Shown: piece after piece, positions 6,184 through 27,955 of the stretch
Numbering within the stretch: position 1 is the stretch's first letter
Layout of the letters: each line of letters opens with the position of its first letter
Source of the DNA: Verrucomicrobia bacterium Tous-C9LFEB
GTDB taxonomy: Bacteria; Acidobacteriota; Terriglobia; Terriglobales; Acidobacteriaceae
Direction: 5' to 3'
Assembly: GCA_903970445.1 (NCBI GenBank)
Contig: CAJCIP010000011.1
Span: 62,001 to 126,000 of the forward strand
Length of the DNA stretch: 64,000 nucleotides
Notes under the pieces: model-generated
What the model was told of the DNA's origin: nothing
The model's database searches: none
What the model saw: only the letters and a program-made list of their open reading frames with translations
Made by a program: the position numbers and the translations under genes

Positions 6184-9054
6184 TTAAACAGAGGAGCGCA
6201 TCCAGACTTTCGACTCAATGGGCCGTTCGCGGTGGCGACGCGGCGATGGCAGCGCCGTCGCTTTTTTGCTGAGGTTATTAGTTGCGCCTGGAGCGTAATT
6301 TACAGAGGTATCCCCGCCCACCGCGATCCTGGGTTCCGACACACGGTTCATGCGAGCGTAGTTCGGAATGGCGAGCATAGGAGAGCCGTCTTGCCACTTG
6401 CCGTTGATGACCATGACACCGCCGAGGAGGTCGGGACGCCACTCGGCGTGCAGCGGTTCGTTGCTGAGCGGCTGGCCTAAATCAGGCTGGTCGGCAGTCT
6501 CAACGTTATAGATGAGCGGGCCATACTGCAGCGCAACCAAATTTTTGTCAGCCTGGATGCGCGGATCGGCTATGAGCCGCTGGACTACCATCGGAAGCTC
6601 GAGCTCGATGGTGTCACCCGGTTCCCAACGGCGCGTGATGACAGCGTAGCCTTTCACGATGTGCGGCGTGATGGCTTTGCCGTTGACAGCGAGGCGAGTG
6701 AGGCCGCTGACCTTGGGCGTTGTGGTGTAAAGTCTGGAGGTTGTTCTGTCGGGGACGCGGACGTGGAGAGTGAAGGTCGCTGCCTTCTCCGGGTTGAGCG
6801 TGATGGCAACGGTGCCTTTCCACGGGTAGTCGGTCTTCTGCACAACCTCGACGTTGGTGCCGGCAATCTGCCCGACATGCACGCGACCGCCGATGAATAG
6901 GTTGACGTGCAAGGCATCAGGGGCCTTGGTGTAGCTCCAAGTGGGAACCATCAAGAGCGTGCGAGGAATGTTGCCGACGCAGCAAGGGCACACGTGCCAC
7001 GGCGTTCGTTGCGTGTTGATCAGAGGATTGGTGTAGCAGAAGTTCTTACCCTGGGCATCGACGGCTCCAAAGAGGGCGTTATACATGGTCTGCTCGTAAA
7101 GATCAGCGTACTTCGCGTCGCGATAAGCGAGGTTCATCTTGTACTGAAAGAAGATGAGCCCGCAGCTGGAGCAGGATTCGCAGTAGGCGTCATTACGCAA
7201 GGAGTAGTTGGGGCCGAAGCCCTCGGAGGTATCGCCGCTTCCGATGCCGCCGGTCACGTAATACTTTTTGTTGACCATGTTGTCCCAGAGCGAGAGAACG
7301 GCGCTCTGGTAGTCCTGGTCTCCGGTTTCGGCAGCGATGTCGGCCATCCCGGAGTAGAAGTAGGTGGCGCGGACAGCGTGGCCGACGGCCTCGTACTGGC
7401 GGATGGGAGGCAGGTGGCTTTGGTCGTACTCCTGACCACCGCGGCGTGAGTCGAGGAGAAATTTGGCGAGGACGATGTAGTTGTTGCCGCGACCATTGCC
7501 TTCCGTGTCGTTGACGAAGCGGCCGAATCGAACGAGGGCCTGCTCCATTTCCTGATGGCCATCGAACCATTCTTTCTTGCCGACCCCGATGTTGGCGACC
7601 CAGCAGTCAGCGAGCTTCTTGGCGGCGTTGTAGAGGCGGAGGTCCTGGCCGTCGGTGAGCGTGTAGTGATTGATGCCGGATTCGATGAAATAGCCGGCGG
7701 TGTAGCCTTCGTGATTGCCGCGATGCTCGGGCGACCAGCGCTCCGGCCACTCTCGGCGGTCGGCAAGGGTAAAGGCAGTTTGCAGGTAGCCGTCGGGTTC
7801 CTGCGCGGCGAGAATGATGGGAATCCAGCGTTCGAGCGTCACCTTCATGGCTTGCTGTGCGGCGAGGATGTCGGGGTCACCCTGGGCGTCGACCATCAGC
7901 GCGATGCACATGGATTCGACGGTCTGGTGGACCCAGGCATTGGAGAAGACGTAGCCCTTATGGCGGCCGTGGGGCTCGCCGCGCAGAGCTTTACCGGCTT
8001 CGATAAAGTTGTCGAGGCCGCCCTGGCCCTGCGTAAGGTCGGTGCGCTCGCACTGCTCGACGCAATGGGGAATCCAATCGACGATGAGCGTCTTGGCGCG
8101 CTGGTTCCACATGGGATTGTTGATCGCATAGCGCGTGGTGTAGATCACGTTCAGGCGCTCTTTCGGCGGGGCATGCTCGGCGTGAACGGTGATGGTGGAG
8201 CGGGCGTTTTCCTCTTCCCCGAAGGCTGTAAGTTGGAGCACGTACTCGCCGGGTGAGGAGAAGGTGGCGGTGGTGTCAGGTGCGGTGGCGTTGGCAAAAA
8301 CGACCTGGCCGGGGCCGGAGAGCTTGGTCCAGCGGGAGCGCCGGACGGTAGCGGGATTTAGCCATGCGGCCGAGCCGGAGAGATAGGTCTTGCCGCCGAG
8401 AACCACGGCGCGATCCACGCCGGCGTCTACGGTCGGCGGGAAGAGTGGTACGGGGCCGCTGCTGAAGACTTTCCACTCGAGGAGGCCAGTGGAGTGCTTG
8501 CCGTCGGAGGTAAGTTCGACGCGCAGCTTGTCGGTTTTGATCTCGTCGAAGGTGGTGGTGTTGAAGCTGTTTGCTGAGACGCCGAGGCCTTTGGCTTCGG
8601 TGACAGGAACGAAGGCCGAGCCGTTCCAATAAGTGACGGTGTAGGAAGAGGGAAGCCCTACGCCTTGGCCATCCGCCCAGAAATAGAGGTCGATTCGGTT
8701 CGTTGTGATCGGGCGTGACCAGTCGTACTGTATCCATTGTGGGTCGGTGTGGGGCCAGTTGCCGTAACTGCCGTGTTCCTGATCGCTGGAGCTGGTGGGG
8801 TCGAAGCCGTCCTTGAGCGCGGCGAGACGAGTGTCTCCGGAGACGTAAGAGGCGGATGGCGTAGCGACCCTTGCGAGGTTAACAGTGATGCCGGGTATCA
8901 CGGCGGCGAAAGCTTTTGAATGTTCAACCGCGGAGAGGAGAGCTGCGCCGGTGGCGCCGGCGAGGAATTGCCTGCGGTTGACAGAGGCGCCCTGCGATAC
9001 ATTTTCCGCAGTCGTCCAAGCAGTTTCGGAAGAAGAGGAGCTATCGGACTTCAT
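6184..9054 (-). CDS. GH127-family beta-L-arabinofuranosidase-like protein with N-terminal carbohydrate-binding-like domain, Tat-exported
   Basis: A 956-residue product. The start at ATG 9054 is chosen because GAGAGGG sits six to seven bases upstream. A twin-arginine signal (NRRQFLAGATGAALL) indicates export of a folded enzyme. Next comes an F5/8C-like (discoidin) binding region (~50-200), a PKD/Ig-like region (~205-295), then the GH127 (DUF1680) barrel. The family's zinc-thiolate site is intact: Glu and Cys in YCESCSSCG (~625) and paired Cys in CPCCVGN (~690), matching the Glu/Cys/Cys/Cys set of bifidobacterial HypBA1, which releases beta-L-arabinofuranose from hydroxyproline-linked arabinosides. 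The C-terminal ~30 residues are basic and unlike the rest. Divergent from a second GH127 gene. Exact substrate is inferred. Confidence 0.88.
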   Translation of the reverse strand: MKSDSSSSSETAWTTAENVSQGASVNRRQFLAGATGAALLSAVEHSKAFAAVIPGITVNLARVATPSASYVSGDTRLAALKDGFDPTSSSDQEHGSYGNWPHTDPQWIQYDWSRPITTNRIDLYFWADGQGVGLPSSYTVTYWNGSAFVPVTEAKGLGVSANSFNTTTFDEIKTDKLRVELTSDGKHSTGLLEWKVFSSGPVPLFPPTVDAGVDRAVVLGGKTYLSGSAAWLNPATVRRSRWTKLSGPGQVVFANATAPDTTATFSSPGEYVLQLTAFGEEENARSTITVHAEHAPPKERLNVIYTTRYAINNPMWNQRAKTLIVDWIPHCVEQCERTDLTQGQGGLDNFIEAGKALRGEPHGRHKGYVFSNAWVHQTVESMCIALMVDAQGDPDILAAQQAMKVTLERWIPIILAAQEPDGYLQTAFTLADRREWPERWSPEHRGNHEGYTAGYFIESGINHYTLTDGQDLRLYNAAKKLADCWVANIGVGKKEWFDGHQEMEQALVRFGRFVNDTEGNGRGNNYIVLAKFLLDSRRGGQEYDQSHLPPIRQYEAVGHAVRATYFYSGMADIAAETGDQDYQSAVLSLWDNMVNKKYYVTGGIGSGDTSEGFGPNYSLRNDAYCESCSSCGLIFFQYKMNLAYRDAKYADLYEQTMYNALFGAVDAQGKNFCYTNPLINTQRTPWHVCPCCVGNIPRTLLMVPTWSYTKAPDALHVNLFIGGRVHVGQIAGTNVEVVQKTDYPWKGTVAITLNPEKAATFTLHVRVPDRTTSRLYTTTPKVSGLTRLAVNGKAITPHIVKGYAVITRRWEPGDTIELELPMVVQRLIADPRIQADKNLVALQYGPLIYNVETADQPDLGQPLSNEPLHAEWRPDLLGGVMVINGKWQDGSPMLAIPNYARMNRVSEPRIAVGGDTSVNYAPGATNNLSKKATALPSPRRHRERPIESKVWMRSSV

Positions 9055-9438
9055 TTCGTTCCCTCTCACGCGCGTCGACAGGTGGGCGACTGCGCTACGC
9101 GTCACAAACCTAATAGGTAGACGGCGAATCGAACGCTTCGTCAGGGCAAATGGAAGGTTCCGCAATCATTATGTATACATAAATGTACACACTCTGGCGC
9201 AGATGGTCCATGAGAGAAAAAGCTGTGGAATGCTGGAAGGTGCTCTCAGTAAAGGAATTTGAAGGGAAGCGTAACAAGGTGGCTGCCGTCGGTGCGGACA
9301 GGGTCCGGCGCTTCTTTTTGTAGCAATCCCAACCTCTAAGCAGAAGTGCATACGGTATTGAACACAACGGTATCGTGCCATCAACCCAGAGCATGAAGGT
9401 GTTGCGCGTTGAATGGATATCCAAAGCAGCGGGGTTCA
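9055..9438. promoter_or_regulatory. Shared divergent promoter region of the two GH127 genes
   Basis: A 384-base gap between two genes that face away from each other, so both promoters should lie here. It contains a perfect ATGTATACAT palindrome at 9171-9180 followed by ATGTACAC, described separately. A ribosome site GAGAGGG precedes the leftward gene and GCGGGG precedes the rightward one. Small open frames in the gap look spurious. Confidence 0.6.
9171..9190. promoter_or_regulatory. Candidate operator, GTATAC palindrome
   Basis: ATGTATACAT (9171-9180) is a perfect 10-base palindrome and is followed two bases later by ATGTACAC. Palindromes of the form TTGTATACAA are typical of GntR/FadR-subfamily regulators, and a GntR/FCD gene lies at 20660-21394. 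Similar sites occur upstream of the receptor gene and between the two peptidase genes. Confidence 0.5.
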
Positions 9439-11832
9439 ATGATGAGGCCGAATCGGCGCGGGTTTGTCTTAGGAGCGGCTGCCACGATGGCAGCCGCAGG
9501 CACGGTGGCTAAAGCCGCGCAGGCAGCAATCGGTCCTCGACTTCCAAGTTTGGCCAAGGCGCTGCCGCTGGAAGCGGTGCGGCTGTTGCCATCGGACTAT
9601 GCTGTTGCGGTCGAGGTGAACCGGACGTTTCTGCTAAGTCTGAGCGCAGACCGGCTACTGCACAATTTTCTTGTATATGCCGGACTGCCAGCGAAAGCTC
9701 CAATTTATGGCGGATGGGAGAGCGACACGATCGCCGGCCATACGCTGGGGCACTACCTGACGGCGCTGGTGCGAACGTATGAGCAAACGGGCGATGAGGT
9801 GTGCAGGGAACGGGCAGACTATATTGTTGCGGAGCTGGCGCGCGCGCAGGCAGCGCGTGGCAACGGCTACGTGGGCGCGCTGGGGCGAAAGAAGAAGGAC
9901 GGAACAATCGTCGATGGGCAGGAGATATTTCCAGAGGTGATGCGGGGAGAAATTCATTCGGGTGGGTTCGATCTGAATGGGTCTTGGTCGCCGCTCTACA
10001 CCGTGCATAAGCTGATGGCGGGGCTGCTCGATGTGCACGCGGCGTGGGGCAATCCGACGGCGTTGAAGGTGGAGGTTGGCCTCGCGGACTACTTCGCGCG
10101 CGTATTTGCTGCGTTGAACGATGCGCAGATGCAGCAGGTGCTGAATACGGAATATGGCGGTCTGAACGAAAGCTTTGCCGAGCTCTACGCGCAAACCGGC
10201 GACAAGCGCTGGCTGGAGGTGGCGCAACGGATTTATGACCATAAAGTTCTTGATCCGCTGGAGGCTGGGCAGGACAAGTTGGCGAACTTCCATGCCAACA
10301 CGCAGGTGCCGAAAGTGATCGGACTGGCCCGCATTCACGAGCTGAGCCGGAGGCCCGAGCTGCGGGATGCCGCTAACTTTTTCTGGACAACGGTGACCGA
10401 GCACCATAGCTACGTGATTGGCGGCAATGCGGACCGCGAATATTTCTCCGCACCCGATACGATCGCCGAACATATTACCGAGCAGACGTGCGAGCACTGC
10501 AACACGTACAACATGCTCAAGCTGACGCGCCAGCTATATAGCTGGAAGCCGGACGGCAGATATTTCGATTACTACGAGCGCGCTCACTTGAATCACGTGA
10601 TGGCGGCACAGAATCCGAAGACGGGCGGGTTTACGTACATGACGCCGCTGATGTCCGGCGCTCAACGCGGCTATTCCGAACCCAAGGAGGACGCTTTCTG
10701 GTGTTGTGTAGGGACAGGGATGGAGAGCCACTCGAAGCATGGCGACTCGATTTTCTGGGAGGGTGAAGGAACGCTGTTGGTCAACCTGTACATCCCGGCA
10801 GAGGCAACATGGGCGACACGTCAAGCCAAGGTGATGCTGGAGACGAAGTACCCGATGCAGCAGAAAGCAGCGCTGACGCTAAGCAGCCTGGGGCGTCCGG
10901 GCAGGTTCGCGATCGCGCTGAGGGTGCCAGCATGGGCCAAAGGCGAGGCCGACGTCGCGGTGAACGGCAAGCCATTTTCGCCAGCATACATTTGCGGATA
11001 CGCGTTGGTAGATCGTCATTGGAAGGCAGCGGATGTGCTGACGATCGAGCTGCCGATGCAGCTGCGGATTGAAGCCACTCCGGGCGACGCGAACACCATA
11101 GCGGTAATGCACGGGCCGATTGTGATGGCAGCCGATCTTGGCGACGCGAAAGAGAAGTGGGACCGTCCCGATCCGGCGATGGTGGGGGCAAGTCTTCTCC
11201 GGGGGTTCAAAGCGAAGACAAACGTAGAACGTGTGGCATATGAGACGCAGGGCATCGTTCGCCCGGCGAATCTGAACTTTGTACCGTTCTACAGCCAGTA
11301 CGAACGTCGCAGCGCCGTGTACTTCAAACGATTTACGGATGCGCAGTGGAAGGTGGAGGAGGCTGCGTTCCTGAGCGAGCAGGCCAGGTTGCGGGACATT
11401 ACCGCGCGTTCCGTGGATGTGATGCACCTAGGCGAGATGCAGCCGGAGCGCGATCACAACCTGACATCCGAAATGTCATACCCGGTGCAATACCGGGGCC
11501 GACAGGGTCGCGATGCGCGATCGGGCGGTTACTTCGAATTCTCGATGAAGACAAAGCCGGAGCCGTTGATCTTAATGGCGACGTACTGGGGCGATGAGCG
11601 GGGCCAGGATTTCGACATCCTGGTGGACAATGTTCTGCTAGCCTCGCAACACCTGAAGAGCGACGAGCCGGGCAAGTTCTTCGATGTGGAATATCCGGTG
11701 CCCGATCCACTCACCAGGGGCAAGGCGAGCGTTCGAGTGCGGTTTGTACCGCACAACCGGTCGACTGCGGGGCCCGTTTTCGGCGTGACGCTATTTACGC
11801 AGAAGCCCACCTCGCCTCCATCTTCACTCTAA
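9439..11832 (+). CDS. Second GH127-family (DUF1680) beta-L-arabinofuranosidase-like protein, Tat-exported
   Basis: A 797-residue product. I use ATG 9439 (MMRPNRRGFVLGAAA), preceded by GCGGGG, rather than the ATG 30 bases upstream, because the twin-arginine signal then starts the protein. The catalytic region runs from about residue 45 to 540. The zinc-thiolate residues are present: TCEHCNTYN near 350 (Glu-x-Cys) and FWCCVGTGME near 421 (Cys-Cys). A C-terminal beta region with HNLTSEMSYPV and GRDARSGGYFEF matches the extra module seen in many DUF1680 proteins. It lacks the front binding modules of its divergent neighbour and its motif spacing differs, so the two probably act on different linkages or chain positions rather than being a recent duplication. 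Confidence 0.87.
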   Translation: MMRPNRRGFVLGAAATMAAAGTVAKAAQAAIGPRLPSLAKALPLEAVRLLPSDYAVAVEVNRTFLLSLSADRLLHNFLVYAGLPAKAPIYGGWESDTIAGHTLGHYLTALVRTYEQTGDEVCRERADYIVAELARAQAARGNGYVGALGRKKKDGTIVDGQEIFPEVMRGEIHSGGFDLNGSWSPLYTVHKLMAGLLDVHAAWGNPTALKVEVGLADYFARVFAALNDAQMQQVLNTEYGGLNESFAELYAQTGDKRWLEVAQRIYDHKVLDPLEAGQDKLANFHANTQVPKVIGLARIHELSRRPELRDAANFFWTTVTEHHSYVIGGNADREYFSAPDTIAEHITEQTCEHCNTYNMLKLTRQLYSWKPDGRYFDYYERAHLNHVMAAQNPKTGGFTYMTPLMSGAQRGYSEPKEDAFWCCVGTGMESHSKHGDSIFWEGEGTLLVNLYIPAEATWATRQAKVMLETKYPMQQKAALTLSSLGRPGRFAIALRVPAWAKGEADVAVNGKPFSPAYICGYALVDRHWKAADVLTIELPMQLRIEATPGDANTIAVMHGPIVMAADLGDAKEKWDRPDPAMVGASLLRGFKAKTNVERVAYETQGIVRPANLNFVPFYSQYERRSAVYFKRFTDAQWKVEEAAFLSEQARLRDITARSVDVMHLGEMQPERDHNLTSEMSYPVQYRGRQGRDARSGGYFEFSMKTKPEPLILMATYWGDERGQDFDILVDNVLLASQHLKSDEPGKFFDVEYPVPDPLTRGKASVRVRFVPHNRSTAGPVFGVTLFTQKPTSPPSSL

Positions 11833-11910
11833 GTTCGGACATAGTGCCGCCGGCGCAGTATGGGCGAGACCAGATGGCGGGGGTTCCAGCCTGTCAGCCA
11901 TGAACCTTCT

Positions 11911-11983
11911 CGTGTATACCCATTCGCCCGACGAATAATCAGCCAATTTGTATTGACATTGACTGCAATAATGAATACAAATT
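11911..11983. promoter_or_regulatory. Receptor-gene regulatory region: GTATAC site plus a 10-base inverted repeat
   Basis: TGTATAC occurs at 11913-11919. About 26 bases on, AATTTGTATT (11945-11954) and AATACAAATT (11974-11983) form a perfect inverted repeat with a 19-base spacer. The spacer side holds TTGACA at 11953-11958 with a poor -10 (TACAAA) 17 bases later, so a promoter overlapped by the inverted repeat is plausible. The region is AT-rich compared with its surroundings and lies about 95 bases before the receptor start. Confidence 0.45.
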
Positions 11984-12077
11984 CACATACATTGAGCGCA
12001 ATCGTTGTAGTGCGGCCCGGCTCGTTGGCCGAGGTGTAGCCCAAAACAATCCATGGGAAGGCTGGAGGGCAAGGCAT

Positions 12078-15000
12078 ATGCAAAAGAGAAATCGGTTGTT
12101 GTTGAGGTTCAATTATTTACGAAGCAGCTTTTCGCGAGGTCTAGCCGTGATGCTCGTATTCGGTTGCCTGCTTGCGACGTCCGCCCGCAGCGATGCTCAG
12201 GACCTCTCTACCGGCTCGCTGAACGTTACGGTTCAGGACACACAAGGTGCGTTGATACCGGGGGCGACTTTGACGCTGAAGGATCTCGGCACGGGCGACG
12301 TTCACAAAGCAACCAGCCGGGCGACGGGCATCTCGGTGATTCCGTTTCTTAATCCCGCGGACTATAGCTTGACCATCAGCAAGGCTGGGTTCAGCTCAAG
12401 CCGGTACGACAAGATCACCATTCAGACGAACCAGGTAACGAACCTTGAGGTAAAGCTTAAGGTAGGTGCCGCGGCGGACACCGTGACGGTGACCGGCGAT
12501 ACGACTCCAATTTTTGATACGACCGGGAATACGTTATCCACAACGCTGGACATGAAGCAGGTACAGGATCTCCCGACCGCAGCTCGTGACGTTTTCTCGT
12601 TGGCGTTCCTGGTGCCGGGCGCGGTGGACGACAACTTCAACAACTTGCCTGGCGGCGCGGTGGACACTGGAACCAATGGTTTCTCGACCATGGCGAACCG
12701 GAACAAGAGCGGCGGATTCGACACGGATGGACCGAGTACGACGCAGCGACTTGAGAGCACGCAGGAGATGACGGTCGAGACCGCCGAACTGGACGCTTCC
12801 AAGGGCGGCACGGCAGTGATGGACATCGGGTTCCTGACCCAGCGCGGAACGAACAAGTTTCACGGCCAACTGTTCGAGGATTATCGCAGCGAGGCGATGA
12901 ACGCCAATGGTTGGAATAACAACAATGCTGGACTGCCGCGAAATCTGCTCATAATCAATGATTTTGGCGGCAACGTAGCGGGGCCGATCTTGAAGGACAA
13001 GCTGTTCTTTTTTGCCAGTATCGGTAATTATCGGCAGCCACAGCAGTCGCTGGTGCAGACCGTAATTCCGACAGCGCTTGCCTTGTCGGGTGTATACACC
13101 TACGCGAATGCGACAACGAATGCGCTGGAGACAGTGAACGTCTTGCAAACGGGCGCGAGCGCCGGCTGCTCGACGTGCAGTGGCACAATCAATTCAGTCA
13201 TCGCAGGCGATCTGGCAAATATTGTGTCGTCGGAGAGTTTGCCGGGGACGAGCATCTCACCGCTCGATCTCAACCATAACCTTCTTAACTTTAAGAACAA
13301 GTCATCGATCACCCAGCGGTTTCCGACGATTCGTATCGACTACAACCTGTCGCAAAAGTTTCGTTTGACTGGTGCGGTGAATGAATCCAACTTCTACAAC
13401 ATCAATGTTGGGTCGCCTCCATATCCGGGTCCGCTGTTCGCCAATCAGGCGTACAGCAACAAGCAACGGAACTACCAGGTCGTCACTGGATTCGACTGGA
13501 CGATCAAGCCCACGCTGGTGAGTGCGTTTCGAGTGGGCTACCTCTACACGAACTTCCTCTATAACTCGCAGGGTGTCGGCTCGCCAAACGCAAACATGAT
13601 GCAGCAGGGAGATTTGGCGTTCGGGTTTGGACTGAACAGCGGCGTCAACGGTTTCAACGCACTGAAGGGTGGCAGCCTGTACCCGGTAACGAGCATCAAG
13701 GACGACAACACGTGGTCAAAGGGCCGGCATAACATCACGTTCGGCGCGTCGGGCGCGACGGAGACGGACCACTACTACAACAACCAATTCGTTCCGTACG
13801 TCGGCGTAAATGGGATTGCGCAGGGTGACCCGGTGCAGACGGCGCTGGACAACGCAGTTGCGAACGGACCGACGAATGCGGCGTCGGATGTAGAAGGTTT
13901 GTATGCGACGCTGGATGGCCGCATGACCTACTACAGCCTGGGCGAGTTCGTGAACATCCACACCCAACAGTTCCAGCCGGGCGTGACGTTTAATCTCCAT
14001 GAGAAGCTCACACAGGCTGCTGTTTTCCTCCAGGATTCGTGGCGCGCTACGCCTACGCTGACGTTGAATTACGGATTGCGTTGGGACTTTACAGGCGCTT
14101 CAGAAGATGAAACGGGCTACTACACGCATCCGGACGTTGCTAATCTCTGGGGACCTTCAGGGGTCGGGAACATCTTCAAGCCGGGCACGCTGACAGGTGT
14201 GCAGGACCCGATCGAGGGGCCGCATGCGAAAGGATATGCACCGACGTACGTGCATCCAGAGCCGACGGTAGGTTTCGCATGGAATCCGCGCGACACAGAT
14301 ACAGCGCTGGGACGCCTGTTGGGAAACGGCAAGACGGTGATTCGCGGCAGTTTCACGCTCAAGAACTACACGGAAGGCGCTCAGAACTTCTGGAGCATCG
14401 GATCGAACAGCGGCGCAAATTTCAACACGTACTACTATGCGGATCCGGTGGCCCCGCAGCCCAATGTCACACCTTCGGCTGGATTTTATAATGCCGGCTC
14501 GGTGATCTTAGGGGGCGCGCTTCCTTCGCTCCAGTCCACTTCGCCATCACCGTTCACGCCGATCATTCACGAGTCCTACCAGACATTTAGCGGGACGGGC
14601 TACACGACGTTCGATCCGCATATCAAGCAGCCGTACGTGGAGTCATGGTCCCTAGGCATTCAGCGGAAGCTGGCTGCCGACGAAGTGTTGGAAGTGCGGT
14701 ATGTTGGCAACGTAGCCAAGGACCAATGGCTCGTGGAGAACTATAACGAAGTCAATATTTTCGAAAACGGGTTTTTGAAGGAATTTGAAGGAGCGCAGGC
14801 AAACCTTGCTGCGTCAAATGGCACGACCTTCCAGGGAGCGAATCCTACGCCAATTATGGATCAGGCGTTTGCGACCTCCGGTCTGGCAGCCAACTACACA
14901 AACGGCACATTTATCAATTACGTGAAGCAAGGGCAAGCCGGCGCTCTCGCCACGCAGTTGGCCAGTAATCCCACCTATTTATGTTCGCTGGTTGGGGCGA

Positions 15001-15917: not shown

Positions 15918-15978
15918 CCGCAAAGCTGCTTAACGAAAGCAAGTCGCCTGCTGCAACGGCGGCTAGCTTCGTTGCGGG

Positions 15979-17985: not shown

Positions 17986-17995
17986 TTGTATACAA
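17986..17995. promoter_or_regulatory. Candidate operator TTGTATACAA between the two peptidase genes
   Basis: A perfect 10-base palindrome TTGTATACAA in the 160-base gap between the divergent DUF885 and S9 peptidase genes. It is the best match in the window to the GntR/FadR-type consensus and shares its TGTATACA core with the site at 9171. Confidence 0.55.
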
Positions 17996-18046
17996 ACTCG
18001 TATGTCTGCCTCCATCAACGGCTCTCACGCCTGGAGTTCTTGCACT

Positions 18047-20629: not shown

Positions 20630-20659
20630 ACGCCGTCGCGTTGTTGAAGCTCGCGAACG

Positions 20660-21394
20660 TTACCAGCTGCCGCGTTCGCCAAAGATCTGGATGACATGGG
20701 AGAGGCGTTCGGCACCCTTTTCCCAATTTCTCTGGAGGCCCAATTCGACGCGGTCGGGATCACCCGCAAGGATCGCGCGGATGACTTCGTCGTGTTCGGC
20801 GACAGAGATGTGGAGGTCCTTGATGATGGAGCTGGCGTACAGGCGCCAGTAGCGTTCCGTCTGGGGCTCGATGGCTTTGTGCAGGGTTGTCATGCGGGCA
20901 CCGGCGCCGTACTTGATGATGAGGCGATGGAAGGAGCGGTCGTTCTCGAATATTTCGCCAGGATTGCCGTCGCGATCCTTCGAGATAATCTCGAGGCGCT
21001 CATTCAAGGTTTGAAGCTGCGCGGCGATGTCTTTGCGCTCCGAGGTCGGCAGGGCCGCGATGCCGCGACCGGCCATGCCCTCAAGCCGGCCGATGATGAG
21101 ATACAGTTCATTGGAGTCTTCCTGGGTCAGTGGAGCGACGATCATGCGCGACTTCTTGGCGTTGCGATGCTCGAGGATGTACCCTTCGCGCTGGAGCCAA
21201 TGGATGGCGCCCCGGACCGGGGTGCGGCTCATGTTCAGGCGCTCGGCGAGCTCGGCCTCCAGGATCCAGGTGCCGGGGGAAAGTTTGCCGTGGACGATAA
21301 GTTCGCGGATTTCGCGGAATGCCGTTAGAAGGCTGGTGCCATGTTCAGCTTTTGCTTTCGGAGTAGCAGCGGCCGCTGCGGCACGCTTCTTCAT
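20660..21394 (-). CDS. GntR-family transcriptional regulator, FCD (FadR-like) subfamily
   Basis: A 244-residue regulator. An Ala/Lys-rich N-terminal tail (MKKRAAAAAATPKAKAE) precedes the winged helix (about 25-90) with AELAERLNMSRTPVRGAI, and a helical FCD effector domain follows. The FCD metal-binding residues appear present (ENDRSFHRLI, then SVAEHDEVIRAIL). I chose ATG 21394; an upstream in-frame extension has no support. It is divergent from the hydroxyproline 2-epimerase gene with a 128-base gap, the usual place for a pathway regulator. FCD proteins bind small acids, so hydroxyproline, a pyrroline carboxylate or a sugar acid could be the effector; this is not shown by the sequence. Confidence 0.88.
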   Translation of the reverse strand: MKKRAAAAAATPKAKAEHGTSLLTAFREIRELIVHGKLSPGTWILEAELAERLNMSRTPVRGAIHWLQREGYILEHRNAKKSRMIVAPLTQEDSNELYLIIGRLEGMAGRGIAALPTSERKDIAAQLQTLNERLEIISKDRDGNPGEIFENDRSFHRLIIKYGAGARMTTLHKAIEPQTERYWRLYASSIIKDLHISVAEHDEVIRAILAGDPDRVELGLQRNWEKGAERLSHVIQIFGERGSW

Positions 21395-21437
21395 GGTGGT
21401 TTCAGACGTAACTTGCAAGATGATTTGCTCCAACCTT

Positions 21438-21491
21438 AATGTATCGCTTTTGAACAAAACATCTTCGTTTCTGATCGCTCTGGAATGTATC
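21438..21491. promoter_or_regulatory. Two AATGTATC half-sites between the regulator and epimerase genes
   Basis: AATGTATC occurs at 21438-21445 and 21484-21491, 46 bases apart as a direct repeat. Each resembles half of the GTATAC palindromes found elsewhere in the locus. They may serve autoregulation and control of the hydroxyproline operon, but the match is weak. Confidence 0.3.
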
Positions 21492-21522
21492 CAAAATCGT
21501 CGACAACGCGGTATTATCACTC

Positions 21523-22467
21523 ATGCCTTTGCCTGTTTTAGTGATTGACTCGCACACACAGGGCGAGCCGACGCGAATAGTTGTGTCGGGCGGGCCGGAT
21601 CTGGGCAACGGATCGATAGAAGAGCGGCTGCAACGCTTCAGCGCGGAGTACGATCACTTCCGGTCGGCGGTCGTGTGTGAGCCAAGAGGTTCGGAGGTTG
21701 TGGTCGGAGCGCTGCTGCTTGAGCCGGTACAGCCTGCTTCGTCGGCGGCAGTGATCTTTTTCAACGATGTTGGGTATCTCGGCATGTGCGGGCACGGGAC
21801 GATCGGTGTCCTGACGACGTTGGCTTACCTGGGCAAAGTGAAGACCGGGCCGCACACGATCGAAACCCCAGTGGGCAATGTGCAGGCGACACTGCACGAA
21901 GATAAGACTGTGACGGTGGAAAATGTGGCGAGCTACCGGTATCGGTCGGCAGTCACTGTCGAGGTTGCGAGATATGGAAGCTATACCGGGGATATCGCCT
22001 GGGGTGGCAACTGGTTTTTCCTGATTGCAAATCCGCCGTGCCCGCTAACGTTGGACAATCGGCTGGAATTGATCGCGACCGCGACGGCGATTCGCACGGC
22101 GTTGCAAGAAAAGGAGATCACAGGCGCGGACGGAGCGCTGATCGATCATATTGAATTCTTTTCTGCGCCGCATGACGCAAGGAATTCCTCGCGGAACTTT
22201 GTCTTGTGCCCGGGAGCTTCATTTGACCGTTCCCCATGCGGGACAGGAACGAGCGCGAAGATGGCGTGTCTCTATCACGAGGGCACGCTGTCGCCGGGCA
22301 CCGTCTGGCGACAAGAAGGCATCCTCGGGACAGTCTTTGAGGGATCGATTAGGGAAGGTCAGGATGGCGAAGTGAACCCGAGCATTCGCGGCCGCGCGTG
22401 GGTGACAGGTGAGAGCAAGCTGCTGTTCGCCGAGGACGATCCATTTGCAGCGGGGATAAAGTTCTGA
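21523..22467 (+). CDS. 4-hydroxyproline 2-epimerase (proline racemase family)
   Basis: A 314-residue enzyme expected to convert trans-4-hydroxy-L-proline to cis-4-hydroxy-D-proline, the first step of the bacterial D-route. Both catalytic cysteines of the racemase/epimerase group are present: Cys89 in GMCGHGTIG and Cys239 in DRSPCGTGTSA. The double Cys argues against the trans-3-hydroxyproline dehydratase branch, which carries Thr at the second site. The following genes encode the D-hydroxyproline dehydrogenase parts, which favours epimerase over proline racemase. It is the first gene of a tight plus-strand operon; the next start is one base after its stop. Confidence 0.9.
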   Translation: MPLPVLVIDSHTQGEPTRIVVSGGPDLGNGSIEERLQRFSAEYDHFRSAVVCEPRGSEVVVGALLLEPVQPASSAAVIFFNDVGYLGMCGHGTIGVLTTLAYLGKVKTGPHTIETPVGNVQATLHEDKTVTVENVASYRYRSAVTVEVARYGSYTGDIAWGGNWFFLIANPPCPLTLDNRLELIATATAIRTALQEKEITGADGALIDHIEFFSAPHDARNSSRNFVLCPGASFDRSPCGTGTSAKMACLYHEGTLSPGTVWRQEGILGTVFEGSIREGQDGEVNPSIRGRAWVTGESKLLFAEDDPFAAGIKF

Positions 22468-22468
22468 G

Positions 22469-23602
22469 GTGAAGTTGTTTGACGTTCTTGTCGTAGGTGG
22501 AGGCATCGTCGGCAGCGCCGTGGCGCGCGAGTGCGCGCTAGAGGGCTGGCGTGTTGGCGTGGTGGGCGGCGGCAATCTCAGCGGTAGCGCTACCGCCGCG
22601 GGGATGGGACACCTGGTTGTGATGGATGATTCGCCCGCACAGTTGGCGCTCACGGCATACTCCCGATCGTTGTGGCGAGGGATGGCGCAACGGCTGCCGA
22701 AGACCGCGGAGTATGACGGGTGCGGAACGATATGGGTAGCAGCGGACGAGGAAGAGCTGATCGAGGCTCGGGCAAAGTGCGCGGTGTATGAGGGGATGGG
22801 CATTGAGGCGCGCATGTTGTCGAGTGCAGAGCTGTCCGAGGCTGAGCCACATTTGCGCAAGAGGCTGGCAGGCGGGTTGATCGTGCCGGAGGATGGGGTT
22901 ATTTATCCGCCAGCGGCCGCGCAGTATTTTCTGGGTGAGGCGAAGCGGCTCGGGGCAGAGGTCGTGGGACTGCGGGCAGTGAGCGCGGCGCACGGGGAAG
23001 TTCGGCTGGCGGATGGTAGTGTGCTTACGGCAGAACGCATTGTGCTGGCTGTGGGAACAGATTGCACGCTGCTGCCCTCACTTCCCATCCAAGGGCGCAA
23101 AGGGCATCTCGTGATTACGGACCGGTATCCGGGAGTAGTGCGGCACCAACTGGTGGAGCTTGGATATCTGAAGAGCGCGCATAAGCTCACGGAAGACTCG
23201 GTAGCATTCAATGTGCAGCCTCGGCCGACGGGGCAGCTGATGATTGGGTCTTCGCGGCAATACGGTGGAACCTCAGCGGAGATAGAGCCGGCGATGCTGC
23301 GCAGGATGCTGGACCGGACGATGGAGTATATGCCGGGACTGGGACAGCTTTCAGGACTGAGAGCGTGGACGGGATTTCGCGCCGCCACTCCGGATAAGTT
23401 GCCGCTTATAGGGCAGGCGGCGGGGTTGTCGGAGGATGAAAGCCTTTGGTTGGCGGTGGGATTTGAGGGGCTGGGCATAACGAATGCACCGGGTGCGGCG
23501 CGTCTGCTCGTAGACGGGATGAAGGGGCGAACGGGTGCGATTGATGCAACGCCATATCTTGCTGCGCGGATGTGCCGGCAGGTCGGGGTGGTGTATGCCT
23601 GA
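22469..23602 (+). CDS. D-hydroxyproline dehydrogenase, FAD-dependent DAO-type subunit
   Basis: A 377-residue FAD oxidoreductase. The N-terminal dinucleotide fold DVLVVGGGIVGSAVAREC is clear and the DAO-family C-terminus (GFRAATPDKLPLIGQ, VGFEGLGITNAPGAARL) is intact. It should oxidise cis-4-hydroxy-D-proline to 1-pyrroline-4-hydroxy-2-carboxylate. It starts at GTG 22469. Its end overlaps the next gene by eight bases and it is followed by a small [2Fe-2S] protein and a BFD-type flavoprotein. This trio matches the heteromeric HcnABC-like D-hydroxyproline dehydrogenase of pseudomonads (Lhp type), so electrons probably pass to the respiratory chain rather than to oxygen directly. Confidence 0.87.
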   Translation: MKLFDVLVVGGGIVGSAVARECALEGWRVGVVGGGNLSGSATAAGMGHLVVMDDSPAQLALTAYSRSLWRGMAQRLPKTAEYDGCGTIWVAADEEELIEARAKCAVYEGMGIEARMLSSAELSEAEPHLRKRLAGGLIVPEDGVIYPPAAAQYFLGEAKRLGAEVVGLRAVSAAHGEVRLADGSVLTAERIVLAVGTDCTLLPSLPIQGRKGHLVITDRYPGVVRHQLVELGYLKSAHKLTEDSVAFNVQPRPTGQLMIGSSRQYGGTSAEIEPAMLRRMLDRTMEYMPGLGQLSGLRAWTGFRAATPDKLPLIGQAAGLSEDESLWLAVGFEGLGITNAPGAARLLVDGMKGRTGAIDATPYLAARMCRQVGVVYA

Positions 23603-23840
23603 ACGGGTGTCAGTGGAGATCAACGGCAGAACAATTGAGGTTGCGGGTGGGACATCGGTCGCGGCGGCGATGCTGATGGCGGGGGAAGCGTCACGACTTT
23701 CTGTGAGCGGCGAGCCGCGGGCAGCACTGTGTGGAATGAGCATTTGCTTTGAATGCCGCGCCGTCGTGAATGGGAGACCGCATCAGCGGACGTGCCAGCT
23801 GCCGTGCGAAGACGGCATGACGGTGGAGACGGATCGATGA
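23595..23840 (+). CDS. Small [2Fe-2S] ferredoxin-like subunit of D-hydroxyproline dehydrogenase
   Basis: An 81-residue protein with a HcnA/SoxA-like [2Fe-2S] fold. Cluster cysteines are visible in LCGMSICFEC with a further Cys in RTCQLPC. Start ATG 23595 lies within the last codons of the dehydrogenase gene, and its stop overlaps the next start as ATGA, so the three subunits are likely translated together. Alone it would have no catalytic role; it should carry electrons or brace the flavin subunits. Confidence 0.85.
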   Translation: MPERVSVEINGRTIEVAGGTSVAAAMLMAGEASRLSVSGEPRAALCGMSICFECRAVVNGRPHQRTCQLPCEDGMTVETDR

Positions 23841-25135
23841 GCGCTGCGATCAGAACCGAGGTGCTGGTGGTGGGTGCCGGGCCTGCTGGGATTGCAGCGG
23901 CGACGGCTGCCGCGGAGGGTGATTGCAAGGTGATCGTGCTCGACGATAATCGCAAGGCGGGCGGGCAGATCTGGCGGGAGGGGTCGGTTGCAGTCCAGGA
24001 GCAGGAGAAAGATTCGAAGAAGAGGCGAGCGCTTGAGAGACTGCAGCGGTCGGGTGCGGAACTAAGGACCCGACGGACCGTATTCGCTGCGACTGCGGGG
24101 TTCGTGGACGCGCTACAGGAGACCGTGGCGGGGAGTGTCACAGAGCGCATCGAGTTTGAGCAACTCATCCTGGCGACAGGGGCGCGCGAGCGGTGGCTCC
24201 CGTTTCCGGGGTGGACGTTGCCGGGAGTCTTCGGTGCGGGCGGCCTGCAAGCCCTGGTGCGCTCGGGATTTCCGGTGAAGGGCAAGCGCGTGGTGGTCGC
24301 GGGGACGGGACCCCTCTTGTTGGCGGTGGCTGCACATCTCGCAAGTGATGGCGCGTTTGTGAGCGCCATCGTGGAGCAGGCACCGCTAGGCAAGCTCATG
24401 AAATTTGCGGTCTCGCTATGGCGGCAGCCCGGCAAGTGGATCCAAGGGGCTCGATATCGCGCGAGCGTGGGAAAGACGGCGTACCGGACGGGATGTTGGG
24501 TGGTGGAGGCGATTGCCGCAGACCATGGCCAGGAACTGCGTGCGGTGCGGCTGACCGATGGGAAGCGGACGTGGACGGAGGCTTGCGATCTGCTGGCATG
24601 CGGTTACCACCTGGTGCCGAACACGGAGATCGCTGAGCTGCTGGGGTGCACCTTCGAGGGCGATGCGGTGCGAGTGGATGCGGACCAGAGAACGTCGATA
24701 GCCCATGTCTTTTGCGTGGGCGAGCCGACTGGAATTGCGGGCATAGATGCGGCGTTGGCGGAGGGAGAAGTCGCAGGCCTGGCGTGCGCGGGAAAGAGTA
24801 GGGATTCGCTGAGCGCACGTGTCATCACGGAGCGCGCATTTGGTAACCGGTTGCAGCGGACGTTTGCGTTGCGCGGAGAGCTGCGGTCGCTGGCGAAGGC
24901 AGACACGATTGTGTGTCGCTGCGAGGACGTAAGGTTTGCCGATGTGCGGGGGCATGCTGGTTGGTCGGACATCAAGCTACAGACGCGGTGCGGGATGGGG
25001 CCGTGCCAGGGGCGCGTGTGTGGTCCGGCAATCGATTTTGTTCTGGGATGTAAGCCCGCGTCGGTACGGCAGCCGTTGTATCCGGTACCGCTGCAGGCGC
25101 TATGCTCATCGCTTACCGAGATGAACGAGATTTAG
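23837..25135 (+). CDS. NAD(P)/FAD oxidoreductase subunit of D-hydroxyproline dehydrogenase with C-terminal BFD-like [2Fe-2S] domain
   Basis: A 432-residue HcnB-like flavoprotein. It has an FAD fold at the start (VLVVGAGPAGIAAATAAAEG), a second nucleotide fold (KRVVVAGTGPLLLAVAAHLA) and a C-terminal bacterioferritin-associated-ferredoxin-like domain with cysteines in IVCRCEDV and RCGMGPCQGRVCG. Together with the two genes before it this gives the three-part D-hydroxyproline dehydrogenase. Start ATG 23837 overlaps the previous stop (ATGA). Similar proteins also serve sarcosine oxidase or opine dehydrogenase; the epimerase and deaminase neighbours favour hydroxyproline. Confidence 0.86.
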   Translation: MSAAIRTEVLVVGAGPAGIAAATAAAEGDCKVIVLDDNRKAGGQIWREGSVAVQEQEKDSKKRRALERLQRSGAELRTRRTVFAATAGFVDALQETVAGSVTERIEFEQLILATGARERWLPFPGWTLPGVFGAGGLQALVRSGFPVKGKRVVVAGTGPLLLAVAAHLASDGAFVSAIVEQAPLGKLMKFAVSLWRQPGKWIQGARYRASVGKTAYRTGCWVVEAIAADHGQELRAVRLTDGKRTWTEACDLLACGYHLVPNTEIAELLGCTFEGDAVRVDADQRTSIAHVFCVGEPTGIAGIDAALAEGEVAGLACAGKSRDSLSARVITERAFGNRLQRTFALRGELRSLAKADTIVCRCEDVRFADVRGHAGWSDIKLQTRCGMGPCQGRVCGPAIDFVLGCKPASVRQPLYPVPLQALCSSLTEMNEI

Positions 25136-25152
25136 AACAGCAAGGAGAACGA

Positions 25153-26076
25153 ATGAACTGGACCGGCGTAATGCCTGCAATGACGACACCCTTCACCCCG
25201 GACATGAAGGTCGACCTCGAGTTCTTAGCCCAGCATGCGGCATGGCAACTGGGAAATGGTTGTGTAGGGCTGATCATGCTGGGATCGCTGGGTGAAGGCG
25301 CGACGCTCGAACACGATGAAAAGATTGCGATCCTGAAGACGGCCGTGCGCGTGGCAGGAAAGCTGCCGGTCGTAGCATCGATCTCTGCGCTTTCGACTGC
25401 AGCAGCGGTGAAGCTCGCTAAGGAGGCGGAAGATCTGGGATGTTCTGGCTTGATGGTGCTGCCGCCTTATGTGTACACATCGGACTGGCACGAGATGAAG
25501 GCGCATGTGGAGGCGATCTTTGGTGCGACGAAGCTCGAGTGCATGCTGTACAACAACCCGGTGGCGTACAAGACGGACTTCCTGCCGCAGCACATTGCGG
25601 AGCTTGCGGAGGTGCATACGAATCTGAAGGCAGTGAAGGAATCGAGCACGGATGTTCGGCGCGTTGCCGCGATACGAGCGCTTCTCGGCGAGAAGCTAAG
25701 TATCTTCGTCGGCGTTGATGATGTGATCGTCGAGGCGCTGGGCGTCGGCGCGGTGGGATGGGTTGCTGGATTGGTGAACGCGTACCCTGCGGAATCGGTG
25801 GAGCTATTTGAGTTGGCGAAGGCCGGCAGGCAGGAAGAAGCGTTCGAGCTCTATCGCTGGTTCCTTCCGCTGCTGCGACTGGATACGGTGCCGAAGTTTG
25901 TGCAGCTGATCAAGTGGGTGCAGGAGCAAGCGGGCGTTGGTTCTGCTCGTGTGAGGGCACCACGGTTGGAGTTGCAGGGCAAGGATCTTGCCGAAGCGAA
26001 AGCTGTGTTCGAGAAGGCGAAGGCTACGCGCGCAAACAGCGGCGAGCGGCCGATCTCGGAATTCGTTGGCGCTTAG
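25153..26076 (+). CDS. Dihydrodipicolinate synthase-family protein, probable 1-pyrroline-4-hydroxy-2-carboxylate deaminase
   Basis: A 307-residue Schiff-base barrel enzyme. AAGGAG sits six bases before ATG 25153. The family lysine is in LKAVKESS and the tyrosine in MLYNNPV. Of the possible family activities, pyrroline-4-hydroxy-2-carboxylate deaminase (giving 2-oxoglutarate semialdehyde and ammonia) fits best because the gene follows the epimerase and D-hydroxyproline dehydrogenase and precedes a 2-oxoglutarate-semialdehyde dehydrogenase. True DapA is normally found with lysine genes. Assignment is by context plus family. Confidence 0.83.
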   Translation: MNWTGVMPAMTTPFTPDMKVDLEFLAQHAAWQLGNGCVGLIMLGSLGEGATLEHDEKIAILKTAVRVAGKLPVVASISALSTAAAVKLAKEAEDLGCSGLMVLPPYVYTSDWHEMKAHVEAIFGATKLECMLYNNPVAYKTDFLPQHIAELAEVHTNLKAVKESSTDVRRVAAIRALLGEKLSIFVGVDDVIVEALGVGAVGWVAGLVNAYPAESVELFELAKAGRQEEAFELYRWFLPLLRLDTVPKFVQLIKWVQEQAGVGSARVRAPRLELQGKDLAEAKAVFEKAKATRANSGERPISEFVGA

Positions 26077-26362: not shown

Positions 26363-27955
26363 ATGTGCATTACCGGCAAGCAGTACATTGGCGCAACACA
26401 ACATTTCGGCTTAGGGGGCCAAACGTACGCTGTGAATCCGGCGACCGGTGAAGCCATGGAGCCAGCGTTTGGTGGTGGCACGGCGGCCGACGTCGATGCC
26501 GCCTGCTCTCTTGCGGCCGCTGCGTTCAATTCCTACCGTGCGACCTCCCTGGAACAGCGCGCACTTTTCCTCGAAGAGATCGCCGAAGGCGTGCTCGCGC
26601 TCGGCGACACCCTGATTGAGCGGGTCATGGCAGAGTCGGGTCTGCTTCGCGGACGCGTGGAAAGCGAACGCGGTCGCACTGTGGGGCAGCTGCGTCTGTT
26701 CGCATCGCTGCTGCGTGCCGGCAGGTTTCTCGGGGCAACCTTCGATACACCGCTGCCCGACCGCCTACCCTTGTCGCGACCGGACCTGCGCACACAAAAG
26801 ATTGGGTTGGGGCCTGTTGCGGTCTTCGGTGCCAGCAACTTTCCGCTTGCCTTCTCTGTTGCAGGCGGTGACACAGCGGCAGCGCTAGCGGCCGCATGCC
26901 CCGTTGTTGCGAAGGCGCACCCTTCTCATCTCGGCACATCTGAGTTGGTCGCCGGCGTGATTCAAAGAGCAATCGCGAGCGCCGGCCTGCCTGAAGGCGT
27001 CTTCTCGTTGCTGATCGACGACGCTGCAAACAGCGTCAGCACCGCGCTCGTACAGCATCCCGCCATTCAAGCGGTCGCGTTCACCGGCTCGCGGCGCATT
27101 GGTCTTCTGCTGGTGAGTTTAGCCAGCCAACGTACCGTGCCCATCCCGGTATTCGCGGAAATGAGCGGTATCAATCCAGTGTTCGTGTTGCCGGCAGCGC
27201 TGGAAGCAAGCTGTCAGAGAATCGCGCAGGGCCTTATCGACTCAGCCACAGTTGGCGCGGGCCAACTGTGCACCAAGCCAGGAATTGCTGTGGGCATCGC
27301 GGGCAAGTCCTTCGAGAATTTCCGCGCCGCGGCCAAGGCTGCACTCGAGGTCAAGGAGTCTGCGACCATGCTGTCGTCTGATATCCAACGCGCGTATGCT
27401 CAAGGCATCGATCATTGGAAGTGTGACTCTGGCGTCGACCAAATTGCGATGGCGGGCACGGAACCGAGCTCCAGCTGTGCAGGCCGGCCAGCTCTCTTTG
27501 CGACGACCGCAGCGCATTTCTTGGTAACGCCGCATCTACTGGAAGAGGTCTTCGGTCCGACGACGTTGCTGATTGAGTGCAGCGATGAGAAGGAACTCAT
27601 CGGTATCGCAAACCACCTTGATGGCCAGCTCACCGCAACGCTCCAGATGGAGACGGCCGATATAGGCCTCGCACGCACCCTTCTCCCCATTCTTGAGCAG
27701 AAGGCGGGGCGCATTCTAGTCAACGGCTTTCCAACCGGAGTCGAGGTCGGCTACGCCATGGTGCATGGTGGACCTTTTCCGGCCACCTCGGACAGCCGTG
27801 TGACGTCGGTTGGCGCCATGGCGATCGACCGTTTCCTCCGCCCTGTCTGTTACCAGAACTTCCCCTCTGAGCTCCTGCCGATGGCCTTGCAAGACGGCAA
27901 TCCCTTGCGTATTCCTCGGGTTGTCGATGGCGAAATCAAGCTTCCTGAGATCTAG
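26363..27955 (+). CDS. 2-oxoglutarate semialdehyde (2,5-dioxopentanoate) dehydrogenase
   Basis: A 530-residue aldehyde dehydrogenase of the KGSADH type. The catalytic Cys is in VGAGQLCTKPG and the general base Glu in FAEMSGINP; the cofactor segment GASNFPLAFSVAGGDTAAAL is typical of this branch, which tends to use NADP. It oxidises 2-oxoglutarate semialdehyde to 2-oxoglutarate, the end of the hydroxyproline route and of the non-phosphorylated arabinose route. ATG 26363 is chosen for the GGAG upstream. It lies 286 bases after the deaminase gene, behind a hairpin, so it may have its own promoter. Being shared by Hyp and L-arabinose breakdown, it fits both products expected from arabinosylated Hyp. 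Confidence 0.9.
   Translation: MCITGKQYIGATQHFGLGGQTYAVNPATGEAMEPAFGGGTAADVDAACSLAAAAFNSYRATSLEQRALFLEEIAEGVLALGDTLIERVMAESGLLRGRVESERGRTVGQLRLFASLLRAGRFLGATFDTPLPDRLPLSRPDLRTQKIGLGPVAVFGASNFPLAFSVAGGDTAAALAAACPVVAKAHPSHLGTSELVAGVIQRAIASAGLPEGVFSLLIDDAANSVSTALVQHPAIQAVAFTGSRRIGLLLVSLASQRTVPIPVFAEMSGINPVFVLPAALEASCQRIAQGLIDSATVGAGQLCTKPGIAVGIAGKSFENFRAAAKAALEVKESATMLSSDIQRAYAQGIDHWKCDSGVDQIAMAGTEPSSSCAGRPALFATTAAHFLVTPHLLEEVFGPTTLLIECSDEKELIGIANHLDGQLTATLQMETADIGLARTLLPILEQKAGRILVNGFPTGVEVGYAMVHGGPFPATSDSRVTSVGAMAIDRFLRPVCYQNFPSELLPMALQDGNPLRIPRVVDGEIKLPEI

Follow-up and report, generated by a model that had tools for sequence, protein, structure and literature searches.

A predicted HypR-like regulon for the use of hydroxyproline-rich plant glycoproteins in an acidobacterial genome

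The window analysed here, a 64-kb stretch (64,000 nucleotides) of contig CAJCIP010000011.1, comes from a genome of the Acidobacteriaceae whose closest named relatives belong to Granulicella. Between 6 and 28 kb it contains 11 genes with open frames and a small overlapping 2Fe-2S gene, which encode two beta-L-arabinofuranosidases, an outer-membrane receptor, two exported peptidase-type proteins and a hydroxyproline (Hyp) breakdown route with its regulator. The locus probably represents a single regulon that lets the cell feed on the hydroxyproline-rich glycoproteins of plants (HRGPs); the best reading is a HypR-like regulon with an upstream extension for arabinosylated glycoproteins of this kind. 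Computation established the gene content, the conserved linkage of its sugar and imino-acid halves in related genomes, and a sequence motif that they share.

Results

Gene content of the locus

The genome (G000; 3.68 Mb in 133 contigs) contains a single 4-hydroxyproline epimerase of this type and three PF07944 genes, two of which lie inside the locus. The genes that an initial annotation had named from the sequence are all present as open frames where it had placed them:

6184..9054, minus strand: GH127-family beta-L-arabinofuranosidase (Pfam, PDB chains, motif; open reading frame (ORF) 6184-9165)
9439..11832, plus strand: GH146-type beta-L-arabinofuranosidase with C-terminal DUF6805 (Pfam, PDB, alignment, tree; ORF 9409-11832)
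12078..15917, plus strand: TonB-dependent-receptor-like outer-membrane barrel, CarboxypepD_reg and PF25183 (Pfam)
15979..17886, minus strand: exported DUF885 protein with the metallopeptidase-like motif HEMIPGH (Pfam, PDB, motif)
18047..20629, plus strand: exported S9 peptidase of the DPP IV / prolyl-oligopeptidase family (Pfam, PDB)
20660..21394, minus strand: GntR-FCD regulator, HypR-like by context (Pfam; homologues near the epimerase in other genomes)
21523..22467, plus strand: 4-hydroxyproline 2-epimerase (NCBIfam; sole match in the genome)
22469..23602, plus strand: D-hydroxyproline dehydrogenase, DAO-type FAD subunit (Pfam)
23595..23840, plus strand: D-hydroxyproline dehydrogenase, small 2Fe-2S subunit (open frame, cysteine pattern; overlaps both neighbours)
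23837..25135, plus strand: D-hydroxyproline dehydrogenase, large subunit, SoxA-like (Pfam)
25153..26076, plus strand: DHDPS-family protein, predicted pyrroline-4-hydroxy-2-carboxylate deaminase (Pfam; cluster in 41/49 epimerase loci)
26363..27955, plus strand: aldehyde dehydrogenase, predicted 2-oxoglutarate semialdehyde dehydrogenase (Pfam)

The true starts probably lie downstream of the ORF starts for GH127 (9054), GH146 (9439), S9 (18047), GntR (21394, by eye), the deaminase (25153) and the aldehyde dehydrogenase (26363). A tRNA-Glu gene (5640-5714) borders the locus, and GC skew is raised at 6000-12000 (0.10-0.19) and 16000-26000 (0.13-0.25), while elsewhere in the window it is at most 0.07.

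Arabinosidases

Both arabinosidases had initially been assigned to GH127, which holds for the first: the frame 6184-9165 contains PF07944 (3e-65) together with the GH127 middle and C-terminal domains, and its closest PDB chain is 6ex6 (325 bits). The N-terminal part of this protein comprises F5/8-type C and PKD-like domains, and inspection by eye indicated a twin-arginine (Tat)-type signal (RRQFLAG); there is a single in-frame ATG near the 5' end. The second enzyme is of the GH146 type, the top PDB chain being 5opj (474 bits, residues 53-794 of 807), whereas the best GH127 chain, 4qjy, scores only 82 bits; 8k7x_A, also taken as GH146, reaches 170 bits. The active-site motif E-x-C...CC is kept in both proteins, with E352, C354, C422 and C423 invariant in the GH146 alignment, and the GH146 protein also bears a Tat-type export signal (by eye). 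We take 6ex6 to be BT3674, from an arabinogalactan-protein (AGP) locus, and 5opj to be BT0349, from an arabinan system. Published work names arabinan-derived oligosaccharides as the substrate of BT0349, Araf-beta-Hyp as that of the GH146 enzymes Bll4HypBA1 and XeHypBA1, and AGP and arabinan as those of the GH146 enzyme Bll3HypBA1 (PMC10850190). Judged by their families, the window arabinosidases could strip arabinose from hydroxyproline-rich wall proteins.

Hydroxyproline genes, receptor and peptidases

The epimerase, dehydrogenase, deaminase and semialdehyde dehydrogenase genes stand together, as in D-hydroxyproline clusters of the HypR type, and a GntR-FCD regulator adjoins them, as in HypR regulons. 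The best NCBIfam model for the epimerase is 4-hydroxyproline epimerase (403 bits, under the cut-off of 450), compared with 197 bits for proline racemase and 168 for 3-hydroxyproline dehydratase, and both cysteine motifs (MCGHGT and SPCGTGT) are present. The remaining steps were assigned by family and gene order, the NCBIfam equivalog cut-offs being unreached; the best model for the aldehyde dehydrogenase is alpha-ketoglutaric semialdehyde dehydrogenase, at 95 bits far under the cut-off of 770. The full D-hydroxyproline route with a GntR regulator, proposed earlier, is borne out by the Pfam and NCBIfam matches, with the frame 23595-23840 supplying the small subunit.

Pfam searches likewise agree with the earlier naming of a TonB receptor, a TonB-receptor-like barrel composed of PF25183 and CarboxypepD_reg. 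No SusD family, a mark of SusCD-type polysaccharide utilization loci (PULs), was found among the 11 larger genes scanned at 6-28 kb. The two peptidase-type proteins, described at the outset as exported, belong to the DUF885 and S9 families and have export signals recognised by eye; the S9 protein has the propeller and hydrolase domains and the G-x-S-x-G-G motif of S9B dipeptidyl peptidase IV, and its closest PDB chain is 2d5l.

Linkage across the Acidobacteriaceae

The initial annotation had proposed a search for co-occurrence in related genomes, and 150 genomes of the same family were surveyed, with GH146 called at E ≤1e-60; an epimerase match of 30% identity (G113) was dropped before counting (50 to 49 genomes). 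The epimerase is present in 49 genomes and GH146 in 40; both occur in 30, GH146 only in 10, the epimerase only in 19 and neither in 91 (p=8.8e-11, kinship uncorrected). The two genes lie within 21.5 kb of each other in 17/30 genomes, the window counted and two cases (G036, G135) resting on epimerase fragments at contig ends, against 0.32 expected by random placement in 4.6-Mb genomes. The linkage thus recurs well above chance. The initial annotation would have been refuted by halves that occur independently and unlinked; the genomes do not show this, although each half is also found alone. As a control, the histidine-lyase gene hutH, of amino-acid breakdown, was within 21.5 kb of GH146 in 0/29 genomes (on the same contig in 5/29) and within 21.5 kb of the epimerase in 0/23.

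The sample contains four more GH146 genes with 70% identity or above, every one of them linked, in differing gene orders. Since gene order and orientation vary between genera, the linkage has survived rearrangement. One 22-kb stretch of the cultured Granulicella paludicola contains matches for the Hyp genes, GH127, GH146, DUF885, a permease, GntR, GH43 and S9, and sites of the operator matrix described below.

Neighbours were surveyed to a distance of at most 20 kb from the epimerase in both directions in the 49 genomes, some pieces being much shorter. A simple longest-ORF caller lost genes (8 loci without an epimerase call) and a codon-usage caller was used instead, which misses the window's own GntR gene. 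The recurrent neighbours were S9 (19 genomes), the receptor (15), GntR (14 and 6, two groups), GH146 (14), DUF885 (7 and 6, two groups), an amino-acid permease (11), DUF5695 (11), GH27 (8), GH31 (8) and GH43 (5). FG-GAP/ASPIC (9), LacI (8), GH3 (6), BNR/sortilin-type (6) and TPR (5) proteins also recur.

Around the span from Hyp genes to GH146 in 14 linked genomes, 20 of 34 unlabelled proteins were scanned with Pfam. They included two S9 peptidases, an alpha-L-arabinofuranosidase (G098), a polysaccharide deacetylase (G102), a sulfatase, a sulfatase-modifying-type protein and 5 proteins that Pfam did not match; matches to galactanase or pectin lyase families were absent from these 20.

A predicted operator shared by both halves

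A first motif run (width 16), with regions that reached 60 bases past the gene start, picked up the epimerase's conserved coding start and no operator, and was rejected. The second run, with the coding part removed and a width of 14, was trained on the epimerase upstream regions of 29 loci without linked GH146, some of these 'unlinked' genomes having GH146 on another contig. It yielded the palindromic motif TATTGTATACAATA, the best score being reached by 4/40 random starts. With the pass level set at the 5% level of 746 control genes, the motif is enriched upstream of GH146, receptor and S9 genes. It passes before 8/15 GH146 genes, 10/15 receptors, 8/20 S9 genes, 3/6 DUF885 genes, 5/11 permeases, 3/5 GH43 genes and 13/15 epimerases of linked genomes, and before 0/8 GH31 genes and 2/29 aldehyde dehydrogenases; the two divergent pairs (GntR/epimerase, DUF885/S9) share upstream sequence, which makes the tests non-independent, and genome kinship is uncorrected.

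Scanning of the 64-kb window at 13.5 bits or more gave four sites (9169, 11969, 17984 and 21483), which coincide with the four promoter regions of the locus, whereas 100 dinucleotide shuffles averaged 0.22 sites and never exceeded 2; the 13.5-bit level, like the pattern WTGTATACAW, was picked after the window sites were known, and the scoring background was set by hand (0.22/0.28), unlike that of motif learning. The predicted operators, none assigned to a strand, are as follows:

9171..9180: predicted operator ATGTATACAT, GH127/GH146 intergenic region (matrix site 9169-9182)
9358-9367: weaker predicted operator TTGAACACAA, closer to GH146
11971..11980: predicted operator ATGAATACAA, before the receptor gene (matrix site 11969-11982)
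17986..17995: perfect predicted operator TTGTATACAA, DUF885/S9 divergent promoter region
21485..21494: predicted operator ATGTATCCAA, GntR/epimerase divergent promoter region (matrix site 21483-21496)

With one mismatch allowed, TGTATACA is over-represented in the window, at 19 against 6.2, a count reached by none of the 100 shuffles. In the whole 3.68-Mb genome WTGTATACAW occurs in three places, two in this locus and the third within an open frame. As in HypR regulons, one operator is common, in silico, to the regulator, the Hyp genes and the upstream degradative genes; by prediction, the motif ties the sugar, peptide and imino-acid halves to one regulator.

GH146 loci in a second phylum and the DUF5695 family

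A GTDB search with the GH146 alignment, of which the best 80 of 573 relatives were kept, gave 5 acidobacterial and 75 Pseudomonadota loci, the latter mostly from Sphingomonas, Caulobacter, Novosphingobium and Sphingobium (among L093-L169). An epimerase and/or a deaminase was matched in the flanks (10 kb at most) of 51 of the 75 proteobacterial loci (epimerase in 38, deaminase in 49, both in 36), a count which rests on tblastn matches of about 29-44% identity and may include related enzymes; DUF885 was matched in 69, DUF5695 in 59, GH43 in 37, S9 in 36 and GH27 in 11. The proteobacterial Hyp enzymes share about 31% (epimerase) and 43% (deaminase) identity with those of the window. In L155, the one locus checked with curated models for both enzymes, the epimerase passes a different 4-hydroxyproline epimerase model (541.6 against a cut-off of 376), belongs to another subfamily than the window's and is accompanied by a DAO-type oxidoreductase, an M24 Xaa-Pro peptidase and a peptide transporter. 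Since the Hyp enzymes differ between the phyla, one sugar enzyme is found next to two distinct Hyp modules. Among the five acidobacterial loci, Hyp genes lie within 10 kb in L091 and L092, none are shown in L090, and in L111 and L123, which correspond to G117 and G148, they are farther off than 10 kb.

Long-type GH146 proteins of Acidobacteriaceae and of Sphingomonas/Caulobacter are 65-74% identical, which suggests transfer between the phyla. In a quick tree with a midpoint root next to the distant short type, the acidobacterial long-type sequences form one clade (support 100) inside the proteobacterial ones; the unrooted tree only parts the two phyla, so the direction of transfer depends on the root.

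DUF5695, an exported family (e.g., L019:3850-6648 and L021:2292-5090), lies within 21.5 kb of GH146 in 15/17 full-length acidobacterial cases (hand count); it has no match in the window's genome and occurs in 21/297 genomes drawn across the phylum. Its AlphaFold model (mean predicted local distance difference test (pLDDT) score 74.9, with poor stretches) resembles the polysaccharide lyase BACCELL_00875 (template modelling (TM) scores 0.51/0.67, 13% identity), presumably an AGP rhamnose-glucuronate lyase; the lyase-like fold of the model is a lead only. The literature match for DUF5695, among the matches listed, concerns fungal velvet regulators.

Discussion

Proposed mechanism

In the proposed scheme, the barrel would import hydroxyproline-rich glycopeptides, the exported GH127 and GH146 enzymes would take beta-L-arabinofuranose off hydroxyproline, and the S9 and DUF885 peptidases would then cleave the bared peptide. 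Hydroxyproline would enter the cell and be converted to 2-oxoglutarate by the epimerase, the three-part D-hydroxyproline dehydrogenase, the deaminase and the semialdehyde dehydrogenase. The HypR-like GntR-FCD protein would bind palindromes of the TTGTATACAA type in each of the four promoter regions, with hydroxyproline or a product of it inducing the whole gene set. From gene families, gene order and motif positions we infer the biochemical activities, the pairing of regulator and operator, the order of steps, the inducer, the substrate, the roles of the peptidases and the import route. The substrate is likely to be an HRGP of some kind; that extensin-type Hyp-arabinosides are the main one has roughly even chances.

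Comparison with known systems

Bacteroidetes PULs combine an outer-membrane receptor, exported glycosidases and a local regulator; compared with these systems, the window locus has no SusD partner found and has peptidases and an amino-acid pathway in addition. Published systems are compared here as far as the available excerpts of the cited papers describe them. The HypR regulons of Streptomyces coelicolor and, in silico, of Alteromonadales likewise comprise a GntR regulator, the D-hydroxyproline route and secreted enzymes upstream, including collagenases, and in Alteromonadales they extend to prolyl peptidases and a TonB receptor (PMC6608401; PMC5343134). The excerpts give collagenases as the substrate enzymes and mention no glycosidase, whereas the window has arabinosidases; the S. 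coelicolor motif CTNTGC(A/C)ATGTCAC is unlike the window's TTGTATACAA. The hyp cluster of Sinorhizobium meliloti also has Hyp genes under a GntR regulator, but takes up hydroxyproline by an ABC transporter, and no glycosidases are mentioned there (PMC5343134).

On the sugar side, HypBA1, HypBA2 and HypAA of Bifidobacterium longum, including Bll4HypBA1, similarly employ GH127/GH146 enzymes for Hyp-linked arabinose (PMC10850190; PMC7263609), but that system imports sugar by an ABC transporter and the excerpts mention no Hyp catabolism, which the window has. No scanned window protein came near the cut-off of the NCBIfam HypBA2 model (53.5 of 3200 bits, GH127 accessory domains only). Xanthomonas euvesicatoria XeHypBA1/BA2/AA likewise includes a GH146 enzyme (PMC10850190), and a prolyl-oligopeptidase-type gene adjoins xehypAA (PMC6085000); this peptidase gene is reported as a pseudogene, however, and no Hyp genes are described in the excerpts (PMC6085000). 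In Latescibacteria, extensin use was deduced from GH127, with general peptidases listed and no joint locus in the text available (PMC4454575). According to the initial annotation, no combined locus of this kind is known to have been described in acidobacteria, and none appeared in the titles and abstract starts of open-access papers among the matches listed, subscription papers and preprints being outside this scope. The HypR-type regulon is thus known; what appears to be new is a predicted upstream arm for an arabinosylated plant glycoprotein.

Evidence against a joint regulon and alternative explanations

Several observations weigh against a single HRGP regulon. GH146 and the epimerase are far apart on one contig in G039 (207 kb) and G047 (2.3 Mb) and on different contigs in 11/30 genomes, most of these contigs being short; in G097 the epimerase is 55 kb from the nearer contig end, so that pair is truly unlinked. 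GH146 is missing at E 1e-60 from 19/49 epimerase genomes, among the same-genus genomes G116 has the Hyp genes, S9, DUF885 and GntR but no GH146, and G064 and G140 have neither the epimerase nor GH146. Close GH127 homologues (at least 64% identity) occur in 7 genomes and are linked to the epimerase in two of them, Granulicella paludicola (L091) being a further linked case outside these seven; GH127 was therefore rejected as a constant member, while the joint role first proposed for the locus gains from the linkage, the co-occurrence and the shared predicted operator. In the second phylum, 24/75 loci have no Hyp gene in their flanks, although four of these 24 lie on pieces of less than 20 kb.

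The motif passes before only 14/30 of its own unlinked epimerases, 1/11 DUF5695 genes and 2/8 GH27 genes; a level of 11.5 bits yields five window sites, the fifth within GH127, against a shuffle mean of 1.19 and maximum of 5, and TTGTATACAA at two mismatches is unenriched (12 against 8.1, reached by 10/100 shuffles). The nearest solved relatives of the arabinosidases, 6ex6 and 5opj, come from what we take to be AGP and arabinan systems. The double-Glu motif of DPP IV, which serves the free N-terminus, is not evident in the alignment of S9 to 2d5l, and no hydroxyproline permease was identified in the window locus.

The strongest alternative, though an unlikely one, takes AGPs, which are also Hyp-rich, as the substrate, the two enzymes removing the beta-L-Araf caps from AG chains and the products of the Hyp genes consuming the AGP backbone; it overlaps the best reading, which covers HRGPs in general. 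It draws on the presumed AGP origin of 6ex6 (BT3674), the nearest chain of GH127, and on the lyase-like fold of the recurrent neighbour DUF5695 (absent from the window genome), as well as on the action of the GH146 enzyme Bll3HypBA1 on AGP and arabinan (PMC10850190). Against it, no galactanase or glucuronidase family was found among the scanned window proteins, representatives of clusters present in at least four loci and 20/34 further proteins, with the GH43 subfamily unassigned and five of those 20 without a Pfam match; the recurrent GH27 would fit the Ser-galactose of extensin, yet GH27 is common (93/150 genomes). Extensin-type Hyp-arabinosides fit the window's small enzyme set, judging from its gene families, and extensin rather than AGP is a plausible choice.

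A slightly less probable alternative holds that the core (S9, DUF885, receptor and Hyp genes) scavenges peptides and hydroxyproline from any Hyp-rich peptide, including collagen, with the arabinosidases as occasional accessories. The S9 cluster is indeed present in 19/49 loci against 14/49 for GH146, G116 keeps the peptidase and Hyp genes without GH146, and HypR regulons with collagenases are published (PMC6608401; PMC5343134); on the other side, GH146 presence predicts epimerase presence (p=8.8e-11), 8/15 GH146 genes carry the operator motif, and no M9 collagenase was found among the cluster representatives scanned. That an amino-acid half and a glycan half, the latter for arabinan or for side chains of pectin, adjoin by chance or in a shared genomic hot spot and have no function in common, for which the tRNA gene at the locus edge, the occurrence of each half alone and the activity of BT0349 on arabinan-derived oligosaccharides (PMC10850190) could be cited, is very improbable given 17/30 linked genomes against 0.32 expected, 0/29 for the hutH control, the shared operator motif and the second phylum, where distant Hyp enzymes stand beside GH146.

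Within the preferred reading of an HRGP regulon, a broader proposal, somewhat more doubtful than not, is that of a dedicated and widespread HRGP-consuming system in at least two phyla, in which GH146 moved between alphaproteobacteria and Acidobacteriaceae, the Hyp enzymes differ between the phyla, the acidobacterial GH146 carries the local Hyp-gene operator and DUF5695 is an unrecognised carbohydrate-active member. HRGPs are a nitrogen-bearing part of the plant wall whose microbial fate is little described; if the coupling under one switch is true, it would provide a genetic marker for HRGP breakdown by bacteria of soil and leaves, with Granulicella paludicola DSM 22464 as a cultured organism for tests, and a set of candidate enzymes that includes an uncharacterised family.

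Further genes at the related loci

Four proteins of 552-805 aa without a Pfam match at 1e-5 (L034:6043-7773, L038:5796-7517, L013:5273-6931 and L058:3471-5888) lie near GH146 or Hyp genes in G088, G017, G066 and G123. A gene of the Ldh_2 (malate/L-lactate dehydrogenase) family stands by the Hyp genes in G148 (L015:17253-18293) and G128 (L018:1511-2533), in both cases directly preceded by an operator-like site.

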